A DNA stretch of 64,000 nt from Pantanalinema sp. (GTDB lineage Bacteria; Cyanobacteriota; Sericytochromatia; S15B-MN24; UBA4093). The stretch covers positions 1 through 64,000 of the forward strand of contig DATNQI010000050.1 in NCBI GenBank assembly GCA_036704125.1. The letters run 5' to 3'. The notes beneath the pieces were generated by a model. It was not told the origin of the DNA. It saw nothing but the letters and a program-made list of their open reading frames with translations, and ran no database searches. Position numbers and translations under genes: made by a program. Positions 1-6,526 of this stretch are shown one piece after another; positions within the stretch are counted from its first letter, which is position 1, and every line of letters begins with the position of its first letter.

Positions 1-1
1 C

Positions 2-121
2 AACATCCAGATGGAGATCGAGCTGATCACCCCCATCGCGATCGAGGAAGGCATGCGCTTCGCGATCCGCGAGGGCGGCCGCACCGTCGGCGCTGGCGTC
101 GTCGCCAGCATCATGGCCTAG
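2..121 (+). CDS. tuf: Elongation factor Tu, C-terminal end (partial)
   Basis: Only the last 39 codons are inside the window; the gene begins upstream. The visible tail has the domain 3 pattern of EF-Tu: a hydrophobic [20 protein letters not shown]-type strand, then [10 protein letters not shown] and a short end before TAG. EF-Tu delivers aminoacyl-tRNA to the ribosome as a GTP complex. A strong intrinsic terminator follows 27 bases after the stop, so this is the end of its transcription unit. Identification rests on a short but very conserved segment. Confidence 0.93.
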
Positions 122-284: not shown

Positions 285-1313
285 ATGTCCGACTACGCCC
301 GGCGCCTCCCCAAGGCCGAACTTCACGTCCACCTCGAGGGCGCCATCCGCCCCGAGACCCTCCTCACGCTCGCCGAGCGCCACCGGATCGCCCTGCCCGC
401 TCACGACCTCGAAGGGGTCCGGGACTTCTACCGCTTCCGCGACTTCCTCCACTTCATCGACGTCTACACCACCATCTGCAGGTGCCTCCGGACGCCCGAA
501 GACTTCTACCTGGTCACCAAGGAGTTCCTCGCCTATCAGGCGAGCCTGAACGTCAAGTACTGCGAGACCTTCTTCGCGCCCGGCCACTTCATCAAGCAGG
601 ATGCGGACCTCGGGGCGATTGTGGACGCCATCACCCAGGCACGCAAGGAGGCCGCTCGCGATCTGGGCGTGCGCATGGAGCTCATCGCCGACATCTCGCG
701 CGAGATGGGGGCCGAGTTCGGCGTGCGGATCGCCAAGGAGATGGTCCGCATCAAGGATCGCGGCGTCCTGGGGATCGGGATCGGCGGGGCCGAGGCCGAG
801 TTCCCGGCCGAGTGGTTCGAGGAGGCCTTCCGCCTCGGTCGCGAGGCGGGGATGCCCGTGGTGGCCCACGCCGGCGAGGCCGATGGCCCCAAGAGCGTCT
901 GGAGCGCCCTCAACGTCCTCAAGGCCCAGCGCATCGGTCACGGCGTGCGCTCCATCGAGGATCCCGCCCTCATCGCCCACCTGCGCGACCACCAGATCCC
1001 CCTCGAGGTCTGCCCCACGAGCAACACCTGCATCGGTATCTACCCCGACTACGCGGCGCATCCCCTGCGCAAGCTGGTCGAGGCGGGCTGCATGGTGACC
1101 CTCAACTCGGACGATCCTCCCATGTTCGAGACCGACCTGGTCCGCGAGTACGACGTGGCCATCACCGAGTTCGGCCTGTCGCGCGACCAGATCGAGCAGA
1201 TCGTCCTCAACGGCATCCGCGCCTCGTTCCTGAGCGACGCTGAGAAGAAGGTCTACCTGGCGAGCTTCGAGGCGGAGCTGGCCACGCTGCGGGCCGAGCC
1301 GCTGAGCGTCTAA
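285..1313 (+). CDS. Adenosine deaminase family protein
   Basis: A 342-residue metal-dependent amidohydrolase. The zinc ligand pair HVH (His14, His16) lies in KAELHVHLEG at the N terminus. The HAGE motif (His195, Glu198) supplies another ligand and the catalytic glutamate, His219 (GHG) is the usual catalytic histidine, and Asp276-Asp277 in NSDDPP matches the conserved acidic pair. The family converts adenosine to inosine in purine salvage, but related members act on adenine or aminodeoxyfutalosine; NSDDPP in place of the classical TDDP-type context keeps the substrate open. The start is chosen for the GGAAAGGAAG ribosome-binding site just upstream. It stands at the head of a run of same-strand genes, 9 bases before the complex I-like cluster, with no obvious functional link. 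Confidence 0.85.
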   Translation: MSDYARRLPKAELHVHLEGAIRPETLLTLAERHRIALPAHDLEGVRDFYRFRDFLHFIDVYTTICRCLRTPEDFYLVTKEFLAYQASLNVKYCETFFAPGHFIKQDADLGAIVDAITQARKEAARDLGVRMELIADISREMGAEFGVRIAKEMVRIKDRGVLGIGIGGAEAEFPAEWFEEAFRLGREAGMPVVAHAGEADGPKSVWSALNVLKAQRIGHGVRSIEDPALIAHLRDHQIPLEVCPTSNTCIGIYPDYAAHPLRKLVEAGCMVTLNSDDPPMFETDLVREYDVAITEFGLSRDQIEQIVLNGIRASFLSDAEKKVYLASFEAELATLRAEPLSV

Positions 1314-1322
1314 GAGCGCCCC

Positions 1323-1991
1323 TTGCCGAGCGCCGCCATGTTCCTGTTCGCCCTGGCGTCCGTCACCGGGGCGCTCGGCGTCACCTTCGCGCCGGGCACG
1401 GTCATCGCCGCCGCTGCGCTCATGGGAATGGTGGCGGCGAACGCCGCGCTGTTCTGGTCGTTCCAGGCCCCGGGCCTCGCGGCCGCACAGCTCTTGGCTT
1501 ACGGCTCCTCGGTTGCGCTCGTCTTCCACGTGGCCTACTGGCGAAGTCAGGCCCGTGCGAGCGAGAAGGCTCATGACCGGCGGCGCTACTGGGCCGCGCT
1601 GGTCATGGTCCTCTGCTTCATCTTGATCCTGCGCGTGCTGGGGGCCTCGGCGTGGGGAAGCGCGCTCTTCGCCATGCCCGTCTCCTTCTCCCTGGCGCAC
1701 GCCCTGGCTTCGGCGGCGGCCCTGCTCGCGCTCGGTCTCTTCGGGGCGATGACGCAGCGCGACGGGATCCGTATCGGGCTGTCGCTGCAGGTGGCGCTGA
1801 ACGCCGTCTTGCTAAATCTGGCGGCCTTTGGCCACTACCTTCATCCCCATGCCACGGGGGGCGTCGGCTTCACCATCGCGGCCATGGCCGTCGGCGCGGC
1901 ACAGGCCCTGGTCGGCATGGGGCTCTTGCGCAGGCTCTTCGTCCGGTGCGACACCATGGACCTCGAGGCGTTCGATGAGGTGAGGGGGTAG
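1323..1991 (+). CDS. Fused NuoJ-NuoK-like membrane subunit
   Basis: A 222-residue, strongly hydrophobic protein starting with TTG. Residues about 5-75 resemble NuoJ (FALASVTGALGV, then LAAAQLLAYGSSVALVF, the NuoJ quinone-module helices). Residues about 140-222 resemble NuoK: the RRN-type loop, LQVALNAVLLNLAAFG matching the NuoK glutamate helix region, and a tail MDLEAFDEVRG close to the typical VDELNELKG ending. In NuoK the helix normally carries a conserved glutamate (LELMLNAVNLN); here the equivalent is LQVALNAVLLN, so the glutamate is a glutamine. NuoJ and NuoK normally are separate genes in that order, so fusion is plausible. The product should sit in the cytoplasmic membrane. The next gene starts 2 bases later. 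Assignment is by eye; a divergent unrelated membrane protein is less likely given the neighbours. Confidence 0.6.
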   Translation: MPSAAMFLFALASVTGALGVTFAPGTVIAAAALMGMVAANAALFWSFQAPGLAAAQLLAYGSSVALVFHVAYWRSQARASEKAHDRRRYWAALVMVLCFILILRVLGASAWGSALFAMPVSFSLAHALASAAALLALGLFGAMTQRDGIRIGLSLQVALNAVLLNLAAFGHYLHPHATGGVGFTIAAMAVGAAQALVGMGLLRRLFVRCDTMDLEAFDEVRG

Positions 1992-1993
1992 CC

Positions 1994-2260
1994 ATGGCCC
2001 AGCCCTTGAATCAAAAGTTTACCTTGGCCTTCGAGCGGGTCGATCGCGACTGGCTCGGCGGCGCCTACGCGGCCCTCGCCCTGGCGATCGTCGGCCTCGC
2101 AGAGGCGATCAGGCTTTGCGATCGCGGCAAGGTTCAGACCGGCCTGCTGCTCTCGCTTGCCTGCGTCGTGGGCTTCGGGATCTGGTACATCCTGCGGGTC
2201 CCCGACTCGATCGTGGCTCTCTTCCGGTCCCTGGGGGCCTTGCTGGGCCACCGGGGCTAG
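1994..2260 (+). CDS. Small membrane protein resembling the C-terminal end of NuoL
   Basis: An 88-residue protein with two hydrophobic segments (about 25-40 and 47-68). The stretch around VDRDWLGGAYAALAL, then GLAEAIRLCDRGKVQTGLLL, follows the pattern at the end of many NuoL proteins (D-R-x-x-x-D-G ... G ... R-x-x-Q-T-G-x-V-Q-x-Y). It occupies the place of nuoL between a NuoJ-K-like gene and a NuoM-like gene, but the roughly 550 residues that would form the NuoL ion channel are absent. I read it as a reduced NuoL reduced to its last helix region, kept open and tightly packed in the operon, so probably expressed. It could instead be an unrelated two-helix protein. Confidence 0.45.
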   Translation: MAQPLNQKFTLAFERVDRDWLGGAYAALALAIVGLAEAIRLCDRGKVQTGLLLSLACVVGFGIWYILRVPDSIVALFRSLGALLGHRG

Positions 2261-2276
2261 AAAGCGGTTCCGACTC

Positions 2277-3437
2277 ATGCCTTCACTGTTGCCCGTCGTG
2301 CTGCTGTTGCCCCTCATCGGGGCCGGGGCGATCGCCATGCTTTCCTCCGTGCGCCGCGATTGGCTCGCCGTGGGGGTGACGGCCCTCGCCCTGCTGCTCG
2401 CGCTCGCCGTGGCCCTGCCGTTCGATCCGCGCGGGGGCTGGCAGTCCCATGTTCTGCTCGATTGGTTTCCCTCGATCGGGATCGCCTATCGCCTCGGCCT
2501 CGATGGCCTCGGACTTCACTTCGTGGTGCTGACCTTCCTCCTTGGCTTCGCCGCCTCGGTTGCGGCCTGGCGCGCCAAGGTGAACGACCGGCTGACGCTC
2601 GTCGCGCTTCTGCTGGTCCAGGCCGGGGCCGGCCTGGCCTTCGCCTCGCGGGATCTCTTCTTGTTTCTCGCCGGCTGGCAGGTGGCCCTCGGCGCCGTGA
2701 CGATGATCCTGGCGCGTCATGTGGCGGGCGGGACCGCGAGCAAGTTTCGCCTGTTCACGGGGGTCTCGTCCGCCCTGGTTCTCGCTTCGCTGCTCGTGCT
2801 GTACTTGCTGAACGGGACGAACGCCGACGTGGTGCTGCTGCATCAGAACCACCCTGCGGCGGTGGCGCCACTGGAGATGCAACGCCTCATCTTCGGAGTG
2901 CTGGCCGCCGGGTTCGCGGTGCAGATGCCCCTCGCGCCCTGGCATCCCTGGCTGCTCGACGCGCTCGAGGAGCTGCCCGCGCCGGTGGCCGCTTTGCTCG
3001 CGGGCGCCGTCGCTCCGCTCGGCGTCTTCGGCCTGATCCGCTACGGCCTGGCCGTCATGCCGGGACCCGCCCAGGACCTCGCGCCGGCGCTCGTGTTCCT
3101 GGGGCTGGTTTCGGTGGTCTACGGCCTCTGGGGGGCGCTGGCCCCGTCGTATCGCCGAAGAGTCGCCTGCGTCGCGGTGGCGAGCGCCGGCGCGACGGTG
3201 TCTGCTCTGGGCGCGTTCCAGGTCGTCACCATCCACGCGGCGCTCTTGCTGCTCGCCATCACCGGCATCGGCCTTCCCGCCTGGATCCTCGCGGCCGACG
3301 CCTGGCCTCGGCTCGCTTCGGATCGAAGGAAGTGGCTCGTCGCAGGAGCCGTCCTGGTGGTGATCCTCTGGCCGCTTGCGACCGCGGGGATCCTGGCGGG
3401 CTTCGCTGCGGGCTTCGCGCCGCTCGTCGGTCTGTAG
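2277..3437 (+). CDS. NuoM-like antiporter subunit, shortened and lacking key charged residues
   Basis: A 386-residue polytopic membrane protein (about 10-11 helices; NuoM is usually near 500). It keeps the NuoM outline: YRLGLDGLGLHF near residue 75, GFAVQMPLAPWHPWLLDA and the following LLAGAVAPLGVFGLIR. In canonical NuoM these carry the transmembrane glutamate (FFxE), the lysine of FAVKMP and the lysine of ILLK. Here the positions read GWQ, FAVQMP and AVAP: Gln, Gln and Pro. Proton translocation by the usual mechanism is therefore doubtful. The ATG at 2277 is chosen because it fits the membrane N terminus; the frame stays open upstream inside the previous gene. It is followed 3 bases later by the NuoN-like gene. 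Confidence 0.65.
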   Translation: MPSLLPVVLLLPLIGAGAIAMLSSVRRDWLAVGVTALALLLALAVALPFDPRGGWQSHVLLDWFPSIGIAYRLGLDGLGLHFVVLTFLLGFAASVAAWRAKVNDRLTLVALLLVQAGAGLAFASRDLFLFLAGWQVALGAVTMILARHVAGGTASKFRLFTGVSSALVLASLLVLYLLNGTNADVVLLHQNHPAAVAPLEMQRLIFGVLAAGFAVQMPLAPWHPWLLDALEELPAPVAALLAGAVAPLGVFGLIRYGLAVMPGPAQDLAPALVFLGLVSVVYGLWGALAPSYRRRVACVAVASAGATVSALGAFQVVTIHAALLLLAITGIGLPAWILAADAWPRLASDRRKWLVAGAVLVVILWPLATAGILAGFAAGFAPLVGL

Positions 3438-3440
3438 GGG

Positions 3441-4928
3441 GTGAAAGTGATCGATCTTCGCTTGCTGTTGCCCGATGCCCTGGTGCTGGTCCTGCTGCTG
3501 GGCGCCCTTGTCGCCTGGCGCTTGCCTGCTGCCAGGACCCGGGTGGGCCTGGTCGTGAGCTATGGCCTGGTCGCCGCCGCGGGCGTCCAGCTCGGGACCC
3601 TGCTCGTCGAGCCGGGCGGGGCGAGCAGCCTCGGCACCATGGTTTCGCTGGATGCCTTCGCGGGTTTCTCGCGGCTGCTGATCCTGGTCTCGGGTGCCGC
3701 GGTCTCGGCCCTCGCGGGGGATCACCTCCGGGCCCACCCCGCGCGCGCTCGCTTCTACACCTGGCTGCTGCTCGCCACTTCGGGGGCCATGCTCCTGCCG
3801 GCGGCGGCGGACTGGGCCGTGGTCGCCCTCGCCCTGGAGGCCATGGCCATCGGCGCCTCGCTGCTGATCGGCTGGGATCGCGCTGCCGAGGGCGCCCCCC
3901 AAAGCCGGCTGCGCGCCGAGGCCGCCTTCAAGTCCTACCTGCCGAGCGCGGTGGCGACGATCCTGCTGCTGTTCGGCGCCTCGTGGCTCTTCGGCTTGAC
4001 CGGGACCACCGCCCTGGCCGAGACGGGGAGCAAGCTGTTCGATCTCGGAACCACGACCCATGCCCCGATGCTGCTCGCGGTGGTCCTGGTGCTCGGCGGC
4101 GCGAGCTGCAAGGCCCTGCTCGTGCCCTTCCAGGCCTGGGCGATGGACGTGGCCGAGGGGGGCGCCCCGGTGGCCCTGGCCTTCGTCCTCACGGCTCCGG
4201 TGGTCGCGGCCTTCGCCTTCCTGGCTCGCCTGCTGCCCGGCGCCCTGATGATGGCGCGCGACTTGTGGGCGCCTGCCCTGCTGCTGATGGGCGTGGCCTC
4301 CATGGTGCTGGGGAGCCTGCTTGCGATCGCGCAGTCCCGCCTGACGCGCATGGTGGCCGCGGCCGCGATCGCCCAGGCGGGTTTCCTCGCCCTGGCGCTG
4401 GTCGCCTGCGCCCACCCCGACGCCGCAGTGGAGGCCAGGGCGGCCCTGCTCGTCGCGCTCGGCGCCTACGTCGCCTCGACCCTGGGGGCCTGCGCTGCGA
4501 TCGCCTCGATCGCCGAGGGAACGGGCCAGACCGAACTCGGTGCCTATCGGGGCCTGGCGCGCCGCCACCCCTGGCTCGTGGGGGCGCTCGCCGCCTCGCT
4601 GCTGGGTCTCTCGGGCCTGCCGCCCTTCGCCGGCTTCTGGGGCAAGATCCTCGTCTTCAAGGCCGTGATCGGCTACGCGATCGCCTCGCAGGCCTACGGG
4701 CTGGTCTGGTGGGTGGTCTTCGCGGCCCTCCAGATGGCCCTCTCGGCGTATTATTACATGCGCGCCCCGCGCCTCTCGCTTGCGAGCTATGATCCGACGC
4801 TGCCCCCCTTCGAGGTCTCGAGCGGCGCGATCGCGGTCGCGGCCGCGGCCGTTCTCGCCCTCGTCCTTCCCTTCGTTGCGCCCGACGCCCTCTGGCAACT
4901 CGCCACCAAGGCCGTGGCCGGCCTTTGA
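3441..4928 (+). CDS. nuoN: NADH-quinone oxidoreductase subunit N-like protein
   Basis: A 495-residue integral membrane protein of normal NuoN length, GTG start at 3441. Recognisable NuoN blocks in order: the helix with the conserved glutamate (VALALEAMAIGASLL), RAEAAFKSYL followed by LLFGASWLFGLTGTT, SCKALLVPFQAW (the channel lysine retained), and GLSGLPPFAGFWGKILVFK with the distal lysine retained, then the SAYYYMR segment. The middle lysine (usually ATASK) is replaced by TAPV. So most, not all, of the proton path is conserved, unlike the NuoM-like neighbour. The hydrophilic arm and NuoA, B, C, D, E, F, G, H and I are not in this window. Confidence 0.82.
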   Translation: MKVIDLRLLLPDALVLVLLLGALVAWRLPAARTRVGLVVSYGLVAAAGVQLGTLLVEPGGASSLGTMVSLDAFAGFSRLLILVSGAAVSALAGDHLRAHPARARFYTWLLLATSGAMLLPAAADWAVVALALEAMAIGASLLIGWDRAAEGAPQSRLRAEAAFKSYLPSAVATILLLFGASWLFGLTGTTALAETGSKLFDLGTTTHAPMLLAVVLVLGGASCKALLVPFQAWAMDVAEGGAPVALAFVLTAPVVAAFAFLARLLPGALMMARDLWAPALLLMGVASMVLGSLLAIAQSRLTRMVAAAAIAQAGFLALALVACAHPDAAVEARAALLVALGAYVASTLGACAAIASIAEGTGQTELGAYRGLARRHPWLVGALAASLLGLSGLPPFAGFWGKILVFKAVIGYAIASQAYGLVWWVVFAALQMALSAYYYMRAPRLSLASYDPTLPPFEVSSGAIAVAAAAVLALVLPFVAPDALWQLATKAVAGL

Positions 4929-4942
4929 CCCAGGAGGTCCCC

Positions 4943-5230
4943 ATGATCACCCAGGAAACCGTCCATCACGTGGCCAAGCTCGCGCGCCTCGCGCTGGATC
5001 CCGCCGAGGAGGCGACGCTGACCGAGCAGCTGGGCGCCATCCTGGGCTACGTCGAGCAGCTCAAGGAGCTGGACACCACCGGCGTCGCCCCCACGGCGCA
5101 CCCCATTGCGCTGCGCAACGTGACCCGCGACGACGCCCTCAGGCCCAGCCTGACCCAGGCCGAGGTCCTCCAGAACGCCCCAGCCGCCGAGCAAGGCATG
5201 TTCCGCGTCCCCAAGATCCTGAGCGAGTAA
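4943..5230 (+). CDS. gatC: Aspartyl/glutamyl-tRNA amidotransferase subunit C
   Basis: A 95-residue protein of normal GatC length, with the N-terminal pattern ITQETVHHVAKLARLAL and the central LxxILxYVEQLKELDT(T)GV, followed by the LRxD(x)ALRPSL segment. GatC wraps around GatA in the GatCAB complex that converts Glu-tRNA(Gln) or Asp-tRNA(Asn) to the amide form. The ATG at 4943 is preceded by AGGAGGT at 4932-4938, which decides the start over an in-frame TTG 18 bases upstream. gatA and gatB are not next to it; the next gene is a flavoprotein 3 bases on. Confidence 0.93.
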   Translation: MITQETVHHVAKLARLALDPAEEATLTEQLGAILGYVEQLKELDTTGVAPTAHPIALRNVTRDDALRPSLTQAEVLQNAPAAEQGMFRVPKILSE

Positions 5231-5233
5231 GCC

Positions 5234-6526
5234 ATGGCCACTTCCGATCCGATCGTCGTGGTGGGAGCCGGCGGCGCCGGCATGATGGCGGCGATCGCCG
5301 CCGCGCGCGCCGGCGCCTCGGTCACCTTGCTCGAGAAGACCAAGCGCGTCGGCTACAAGATCGTCATCTCGGGCAAGGGGCGCTGCAACATCACCAACGC
5401 CGAGCCCAGCGTCAAGGAGCTGGTCCAGCATTACCCGGGGGGCGGCCGCTTCCTGTGGAGCCTGCTCTCGCGCTTCGACACCCAGGACGCGGTGCGCTTC
5501 TTCGAGGACCTGGGGGTCAAGACCAAGCGCGATCGCGGCGGCCGCATCTTCCCCGAGTCGGACAAATCCACCGACGTGGTGGAGGCCCTCCAGCGCGAGA
5601 TGGTCCGCTTAGGCGTCACCCTGAGGCTCGAGGCCCCCGCCAAGGAGATCAGGGTCGAGGACGGCCGGGTGACGGGGATCGAACTGCAATCGGGCGAGGT
5701 CGTCCCGGCGAGCGCTGTGATCGTCACGGTGGGGGGCCAGTCCTTCCCGGGCACCGGCTCGACCGGCGACGGCTACGCCATGGCGCGCGCGGTCGGCCAC
5801 CAGGTGGTCGATCCCTTCCCCGCGCTCGTGCCCCTCAAGGTCGCGGGCGTCAAGGAGCTCGCGGACCTCGAGCTGCGCAACGTCAAGGCGACGGTCGTCG
5901 CGGACGGCAAGCCTACGCTCGATCGCCAGGGCGAGATGCGCTTTGCTCACTTCGGCCTGACCGGGCCCATCATCCTGTACCTGAGCCGCCACGCGGTGCA
6001 GGCCCAGAAGCAGGGCAAGAAGGTCGAGATCCACCTCAACCTGAAGCCGGCGCTGAGCCGCGAGCAGCTCGACGCGGGCCTGCGCCGCGACTGGGAGGCG
6101 GCCCCGAGGGCGACGGTTGGCGAGGCCATGAAGGAGCGCCTGCCCGAGCGCCTCATTCCCTTCTTCCTCGCCGCGGCGGGGGTGGATGCGGCCAGGCGCG
6201 TCTCGGAAGTGACGCGCCAGGAGCGCAACCGGATCCTCGACACCTTCCAGCGCTGGGCCTTCCCCGTGATCTGCCCGCTGTCCAAGGAGGTGGCCGAGGT
6301 CACCGCCGGCGGGGTCGAGCTCAAGCAGGTCGACGGCAAGACCATGGAGTCCAAGCTGGTGAAGGGCCTGTACTGGGCCGGCGAGGTCCTGGACGTTGAC
6401 GGCTACATCGGGGGCTACAACCTCCAGGCCGCCTGGTCCACGGGGTGGGCGGCGGGCCTCGGGGCCGCACGGCAGGTCCTTTCCCCCGAGGACCCCGAGC
6501 GGGTGCTGATCAGCGTCACCCGCTAG
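5234..6526 (+). CDS. HI0933/YhiN-family FAD-dependent oxidoreductase
   Basis: A 430-residue flavoprotein. The N-terminal dinucleotide-binding motif is GAGGAG (11-16), followed by the acidic end of the second strand (LLEK). The family signature GKGRCNITNA lies at 47-56 and the C-terminal FAD-contact region AGEVLDVDGYIGGYNLQ at about 383-399 is intact. This is the BaiN/YhiN-like group; most members have no established reaction, although one clostridial member was linked to bile acid reduction. It is tightly coupled to gatC (3 bases) and may be translated together with it, but I see no functional connection. Confidence 0.9.
   Translation: MATSDPIVVVGAGGAGMMAAIAAARAGASVTLLEKTKRVGYKIVISGKGRCNITNAEPSVKELVQHYPGGGRFLWSLLSRFDTQDAVRFFEDLGVKTKRDRGGRIFPESDKSTDVVEALQREMVRLGVTLRLEAPAKEIRVEDGRVTGIELQSGEVVPASAVIVTVGGQSFPGTGSTGDGYAMARAVGHQVVDPFPALVPLKVAGVKELADLELRNVKATVVADGKPTLDRQGEMRFAHFGLTGPIILYLSRHAVQAQKQGKKVEIHLNLKPALSREQLDAGLRRDWEAAPRATVGEAMKERLPERLIPFFLAAAGVDAARRVSEVTRQERNRILDTFQRWAFPVICPLSKEVAEVTAGGVELKQVDGKTMESKLVKGLYWAGEVLDVDGYIGGYNLQAAWSTGWAAGLGAARQVLSPEDPERVLISVTR

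Follow-up and report, generated by a model that had tools for sequence, protein, structure and literature searches.

The window analysed here, a stretch of 64,000 nucleotides, corresponds to contig G000:C50 of a genome from the Sericytochromatia (G000; 3.5 Mb assembly, 96% complete). Between add and gatC it carries four consecutive genes on the + strand, separated by gaps of 2, 16 and 3 bases (Table 1). An earlier note, made from the letters alone, had read them as NuoJ-K, a NuoL remnant, a NuoM-like protein and NuoN in normal gene order. HMM and PDB searches and the gene coordinates agree with this reading, and the spacing is as it was given there. Downstream of the HI0933-like gene follow an S4-domain gene, eno and pyk. 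An Rfam scan of the window returned no match.

Table 1. Genes of the window in and around the membrane-arm cluster
Feature	Coordinates	Strand	Evidence and remarks
tuf 3' end (EF-Tu)	1..121	+	phmmer match to EF-Tu of G010, 55 bits; bounds the ancestral NDH-1 locus on the left
add, adenosine deaminase	285..1313	+	Pfam A_deaminase E 5.2e-96; fills the place of the excised ndhA-I
NuoJ-NuoK fusion, 222 aa	1323..1991	+	TTG start, alternative ATG at 1338
NuoL/NdhF C-terminal remnant, 88 aa	1994..2260	+	HMM; end of the lateral helix and last TM helix
NuoM/NdhD-like, 386 aa	2277..3437	+	Lacks the region around TM12-14; family HMMs, PDB relatives, predicted fold
NuoN/NdhB-like, 495 aa, full length	3441..4928	+	Pfam, NCBIfam, PDB relatives, tree
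gatC	4943..5230	+	Pfam GatC E 3.9e-25; right border of the ancestral NDH-1 locus
HI0933-like flavoprotein	5234..6526	+	Conserved neighbour, common to the window and G001

Identity and reduction of the four products

Pfam, NCBIfam and PDB searches concur in matching the K, M and N products to Nuo families, and the best solved relatives of M, N and K are, respectively, NdhD, NdhB and NdhE of Thermosynechococcus NDH-1. In the fusion protein Pfam Oxidored_q2 is matched over residues 127-221 (E 3.6e-11) and Oxidored_q3 over residues 16-117 with an E of 3.7e-5, which lies below the cut-off of that family; the J part is shortened and has a weak family score, yet it aligns with the J of relatives. The M-like product is recovered by Proton_antipo_M (E 8.7e-19) and by NDH_I_M (E 2.3e-49, covering only positions 1-336 of 486), and its predicted structure (pLDDT 75, pTM 0.77) has T. 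elongatus NdhD as the top match (TMq 0.80, E 3.9e-15). The N-like product gives an E of 1.6e-35 with Pfam and of 2e-56 with NDH_I_N. A structure of the fusion predicted without an alignment was poor (pLDDT 57.5) and was left out of the analysis.

The 88-residue frame found no convincing match in the Pfam and NCBIfam libraries. With a custom HMM built from the NuoL C-termini of relatives it was the sole significant match among the 397 open reading frames of the window (27.6 bits, E 5.5e-8), the best score in 5000 shuffles being 13.6 bits. The frame thus represents roughly the final 60 residues of NuoL. The same NuoL tail is found in a second genome, G001, and in a third, G002, it lies inside a shrunken NuoL of 343 residues. 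Off-frame fragments of the segments missing from L and M were not detected within the window, so the short L and M reflect deletions and not frameshifts. A frameshift or assembly error behind them was ruled out by this absence of off-frame remnants and by the shared locus structure of G001. The earlier note had named, as a result that would undo it, full-length versions in relatives together with a sequencing or assembly error here; a reduced set is also present in G001 and G002, and such an error is thus unlikely.

Missing redox partners and proton-path residues

The window genome possesses a complete canonical 14-gene cluster, nuoA-B-C-D-E-F-G-H-I-J-K-L-M-N, at G000:C102 (L070 2185-16120). 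In a genome-wide search PF00146, PF00346, PF01058 and PF00507 each recovered a single G000 protein, all of them inside this cluster; these searches rule out a hidden second nuoA/B/D/H set elsewhere in G000, and NuoC and NuoI are absent from the window operon. Since NuoA, B, D and H are single-copy and all canonical, the window set lacks a dedicated module for electron input or for the quinone. The single copies of NuoA/B/D/H in G001 likewise belong to a canonical complex I, which is complete there. The earlier statement that the set stands without NuoA-I therefore holds for the operon, and for a second NuoA, B, D or H anywhere in the genome, but not for the genome as a whole, which encodes a full canonical complex. 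Membership of the window genes in that canonical complex was ruled out by sequence and locus. A further antiporter-like pair of 813 and 482 residues lies at G000:C35, which from size and similarity is probably Mrp-like.

We then considered ten positions of the proton path, namely E36 and E72 of NuoK, E144, K234, K265 and E407 of NuoM, and E133, K217, K247 and K395 of NuoN; they were placed by motifs invariant in seven complete complexes, and carry what we take to be the E. coli numbering. The roles of these residues have been described (PMC10212512). In the window both NuoK glutamates are replaced by Q, while in NuoM E144 and K234 became Q, K265 became P, and no Glu is kept at E407. NuoN retains E133, K217 and K395 and has V in place of K247, so that 3 of the 10 positions of the central charged axis are kept, all of them in N. 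The corresponding residues, in the same order, are S,Q (K), G,S,A,V (M) and N,T,M,R (N) in G001, and Q,gap (K), L,P,K,S (M) and L,M,P,K (N) in G002, where M-K265 and N-K395 persist; each lineage thus shows its own replacements of the key residues. If an Arg in place of Lys is scored as retained, 6 of 29 proton-path Glu/Lys survive as against 261 of 493 (53%) other invariant sites, a difference with a one-sided Fisher p of 0.0006 when rows of shared ancestry are pooled and of 0.01-0.09 for single rows.

The earlier view that this is not a standard complex I is upheld on three counts: the redox and quinone core NuoB-C-D-I with the linking NuoA and NuoH is missing from the operon, the charged axis is largely lost, and of the three antiporter-like subunits only N is full length, L having 88 and M 386 residues, as the proposed reduction of two of them had implied. 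Among known systems the closest is the cyanobacterial NDH-1, with 11 core subunits and no NuoEFG homologues (T. elongatus, 6hum and 6nbq), to which the window J, K, M and N are nearest in sequence, and M also in predicted fold, and with which the gene order J-K-L-M-N is common. Unlike it, the window set lacks A, B, C, D, H and I, has only the tail of L and a truncated M, and has lost most path residues. Sequence affinity, locus borders and gene order all point to descent from a cyanobacterial-type NDH-1, and we regard the set as a derivative of NDH-1 that, judged from its gene content and residues, is not a working NDH-1. The Mrp cation/proton antiporter is similar in being a membrane-only set with NuoJ-, K-, L- and M/N-like parts; it differs in that the window operon has no MrpE/F/G-like partner and no full MrpA, has lost key charges, and exists beside the separate pair at G000:C35. 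Mrp membership would call for MrpA, which combines L with a J-like part, together with MrpB-G, whereas the window operon has no full L-like core and ends at gatC. Reduced complex I variants without NuoEFG have been reported in Saganbacteria and Melainabacteria (PMC6349859), and are comparable as partial complexes in lineages next to Cyanobacteria; in contrast to the window set, they are described as missing only the NADH-binding subunits. A search of the open-licence literature turned up neither an account of a complex I arm that is orphaned and depleted of charges nor any partial nuoJKLMN sets.

History of the locus in relatives

The remnant is known from three genomes, all draft assemblies. 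G001 ('Ca. Sericytochromatia bacterium S15B-MN24 CBMW_12', contig DAZV01000024.1) is of the same family as G000 and a different genus, and shows the order tuf, a lipoprotein-like gene, J, K, L tail (94 aa), M (490 aa), N (479 aa) and gatC, followed by HI0933, S4, eno and pyk, matching the window in place and order. G002, from a separate family and 95% complete, has tuf, J, K, L' (343 aa), M (465), N (433) and gatC, its L' retaining both the N-terminal end and the tail around a reduced middle part. At the position of add there is a different gene in G001 and nothing in G002. Genome contigs scanned with the N alignment yielded S15B-MN24 CBMW_12 as the sole carrier; the other matches were three complex I loci of ordinary type from other phyla.

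Other relatives carry the whole complex at this place. In G006 and G007 a complete A-B-C-D-H-I-J-K-L-M-N set is followed by gatC, G008 and G009 hold pieces thereof, and in G010 tuf is followed by all eleven genes in the same order; gatC follows nuoN in G001, G002, G006, G007, G008 and G009. The complete complexes of G006:C57, G007:C52 and G010:C97 share with the window the tuf and/or gatC borders and the J-K-L-M-N order and are orthologous by synteny and the N tree; they differ from it in that none of the 11 core genes is missing, L and M are not shortened, and each of the ten Glu/Lys examined is present. In the N tree the window protein joins the N proteins from the complete complexes of G006, G007 and G009 (support 94/95). 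The N and M trees both cluster the three remnants, subject to a long-branch warning that makes their deep placement relative to one another unreliable. In G004, which has no second complex, tuf adjoins gatC (L090 6472-8242), a junction that looks like a clean excision of the whole NDH-1 operon. The synteny check that the earlier note had proposed thus traces one locus in three states: complete, arm only and gone. At the level of gene content and order, these comparisons show an ancestral tuf-ndhABCDHIJKLMN-gatC locus that held the whole 11-subunit complex, and an arm-only state that arose by in-place excision of A-I.

Several further arrangements were observed during this survey. In G006, G007 and G008 an extra gene lies between nuoM and nuoN (L066 7155-10340, L067 4992-6089, L074 1914-3074), whose product is probably secreted, with a start resembling a parallel beta-helix. 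The G011-G014 family has its J-K-L-M-N operon apart from B, D and H (G011:C60 vs C46 and C28; G013:C56 at 216 kb vs 74-79 kb), and nuoM of G014 is split into two frames of 368 and 158 residues (L079 4723-6302) by a frameshift or an assembly error. A complex I operon of Limisphaerales contains two consecutive nuoM genes (L085 4627-7677). G002 has Ech-like and Hyf-like clusters (C161, C184, C222) and no canonical complex I. Two complex I types, the canonical 14-gene and the cyanobacterial-type 11-gene form, occur in many Sericytochromatia (G000:C102; G006:C57, G007:C52, G010:C97, G011:C60). A published phylogeny excluded genomes carrying duplicated genes when its concatenated tree was built, and for Sericytochromatia it inferred an acquisition by lateral transfer (PMC8235220); given the two types and this exclusion, the question of lateral acquisition deserves a new tree.

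Constraint on the remnant and its possible role

Protein identity of the remnant between G000 and G001 is 26-38%, as against 57-83% for the canonical complex I, 64% for GatC, 59% for the HI0933 protein and 73% for pyruvate kinase. Third codon positions differ at 0.46-0.67 of sites, near the random expectation of 0.61-0.63, and second positions at 0.33-0.48, well below the random 0.70-0.73. The frames of the whole set are nevertheless open in G000, G001 and G002, that is in three genera and two families, despite these saturated synonymous sites. In neutral simulations run without indels, stops appeared in nearly all copies before identity fell to about 0.6 at an equilibrium G+C of 70-80%, and at 90% equilibrium G+C 5-15 of 300 copies were stop-free at identity 0.5-0.6; adding indels would presumably strengthen the case against neutrality. 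Neither broken frames nor a complete loss of constraint, as expected of a pseudogene, was therefore seen. Together these results indicate constraint on the proteins, which given the much raised rates is weak. The earlier claim that the set is not decaying is supported as far as recent decay goes, which is made unlikely by the reduced sets with open frames that a second genus and a second family carry at this locus.

The main rival is a slow decay, in which a useless leftover of the second NDH-1 is heading to complete loss and its frames stay open because losses are mainly in-frame deletions. The stepwise shrinkage of L from 343 to 88-94 residues and of M from 490 to 386, the complete loss in G004, the fast evolution and the lineage-specific replacement of key residues all fit it. 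We nonetheless consider it rather unlikely, given the open frames across two families, the conservation of second positions and of 53% of structural invariants, and the survival of the NuoL tail after loss of the NuoL core.

We instead think it probable that the genes encode a retained, largely sealed, non-pumping membrane arm with a structural role. From a complete cyanobacterial-type operon of 11 subunits between tuf and gatC, A-B-C-D-H-I, which serve electron input, the quinone site and the link to the arm, were excised, with J, K, M, N and the C-terminal anchor of L staying behind. Without dedicated redox and quinone subunits, and with most proton-path Glu/Lys gone, the remnant would not be a redox-driven pump; the losses are read directly from the genes, and the loss of function probably goes with them. 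In liposomes, antiporter modules removed from complex I let protons pass and compete with the pumping done by ATP synthase (PMC13220270), so an arm freed of its driving module would be expected to leak protons at an energetic cost. The leak may have been sealed by removing the proton wires through Glu/Lys substitution and deletion of the NuoL core. Both Mrp and complex I are braced by the helix HL, which runs from TM15 to TM16 (PMC7419157), and the window has lost the NuoL core with its antiporter channel, the brace-anchoring tail being kept in all three carriers. From intact frames in three genera at saturated synonymous sites, and from the preferential retention of structural residues and the NuoL anchor, we infer that the remnant is still produced and that selection maintains it as a membrane arm that folds and probably assembles. 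What is left would be a non-conducting membrane body with a structural or other role that, as carrier G002 lacks canonical complex I, need not depend on the latter. The more specific proposal, a pseudoenzyme arm forming a stable proton-tight assembly with a new structural role after loss of the redox/quinone module, falls slightly short of an even chance in our estimation. To judge from the residues, the sealing is incomplete and partly lineage-specific, N of the window keeping three of the charges and G002 two.

These retained charges bear on the suggestion that the set still transports ions, in which case NuoN (and J-K) alone would operate a minimal Mrp-like channel or antiporter. Redox-free sets of J-K-L-M-like proteins follow the Mrp antiporter plan (PMC7419157), and NuoN of the window, though of no other carrier, suggests it by keeping GluTM5, LysTM7 and LysTM12. 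We find it improbable: NuoN of G001 retains only Arg at LysTM12 and that of G002 only LysTM12, the NuoK Glu are lost in all carriers, M is stripped in the window and G001, and in E. coli mutating M-E144 or N-K395 abolishes activity (PMC8357420). Of the earlier proposal of a reduced or repurposed module, the structural or repurposed form appears to fit better, and the ion-translocating form is less likely with the proton-path residues mostly gone, although window NuoN has three of its four.

It is very improbable that the products form an extra part docking on canonical complex I, as an assembly factor or a substitute arm: a complete canonical complex is present in both G000 and G001, but G002 carries the remnant without NuoA and with only Ech- or Hyf-like H and D, and the products derive from the cyanobacterial-type complex. 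Equally hard to credit is that the frames are kept merely to avoid transcriptional polarity on gatC; the operon is tight, with no promoter-like site and a single weak terminator-like site (fewer than in shuffles) from add to gatC, but this leaves the kept residues, hydrophobic segments and second-position conservation unexplained, and in G004 gatC stands directly behind tuf.

The favoured reading, a retained and largely sealed arm, suggests from the comparison of genes that what was once a proton pump has turned into a membrane protein that no longer pumps, having persisted at one chromosomal position over a very long period. The locus provides a naturally occurring series of deletions, from complete through arm only to gone, together with multi-site natural variants of residues central to the debate on proton pumping, and it makes testable the question whether a membrane arm must be sealed once its redox module is lost. 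Should the pseudoenzyme proposal be true, it would show that the antiporter fold can be kept for uses other than moving ions.
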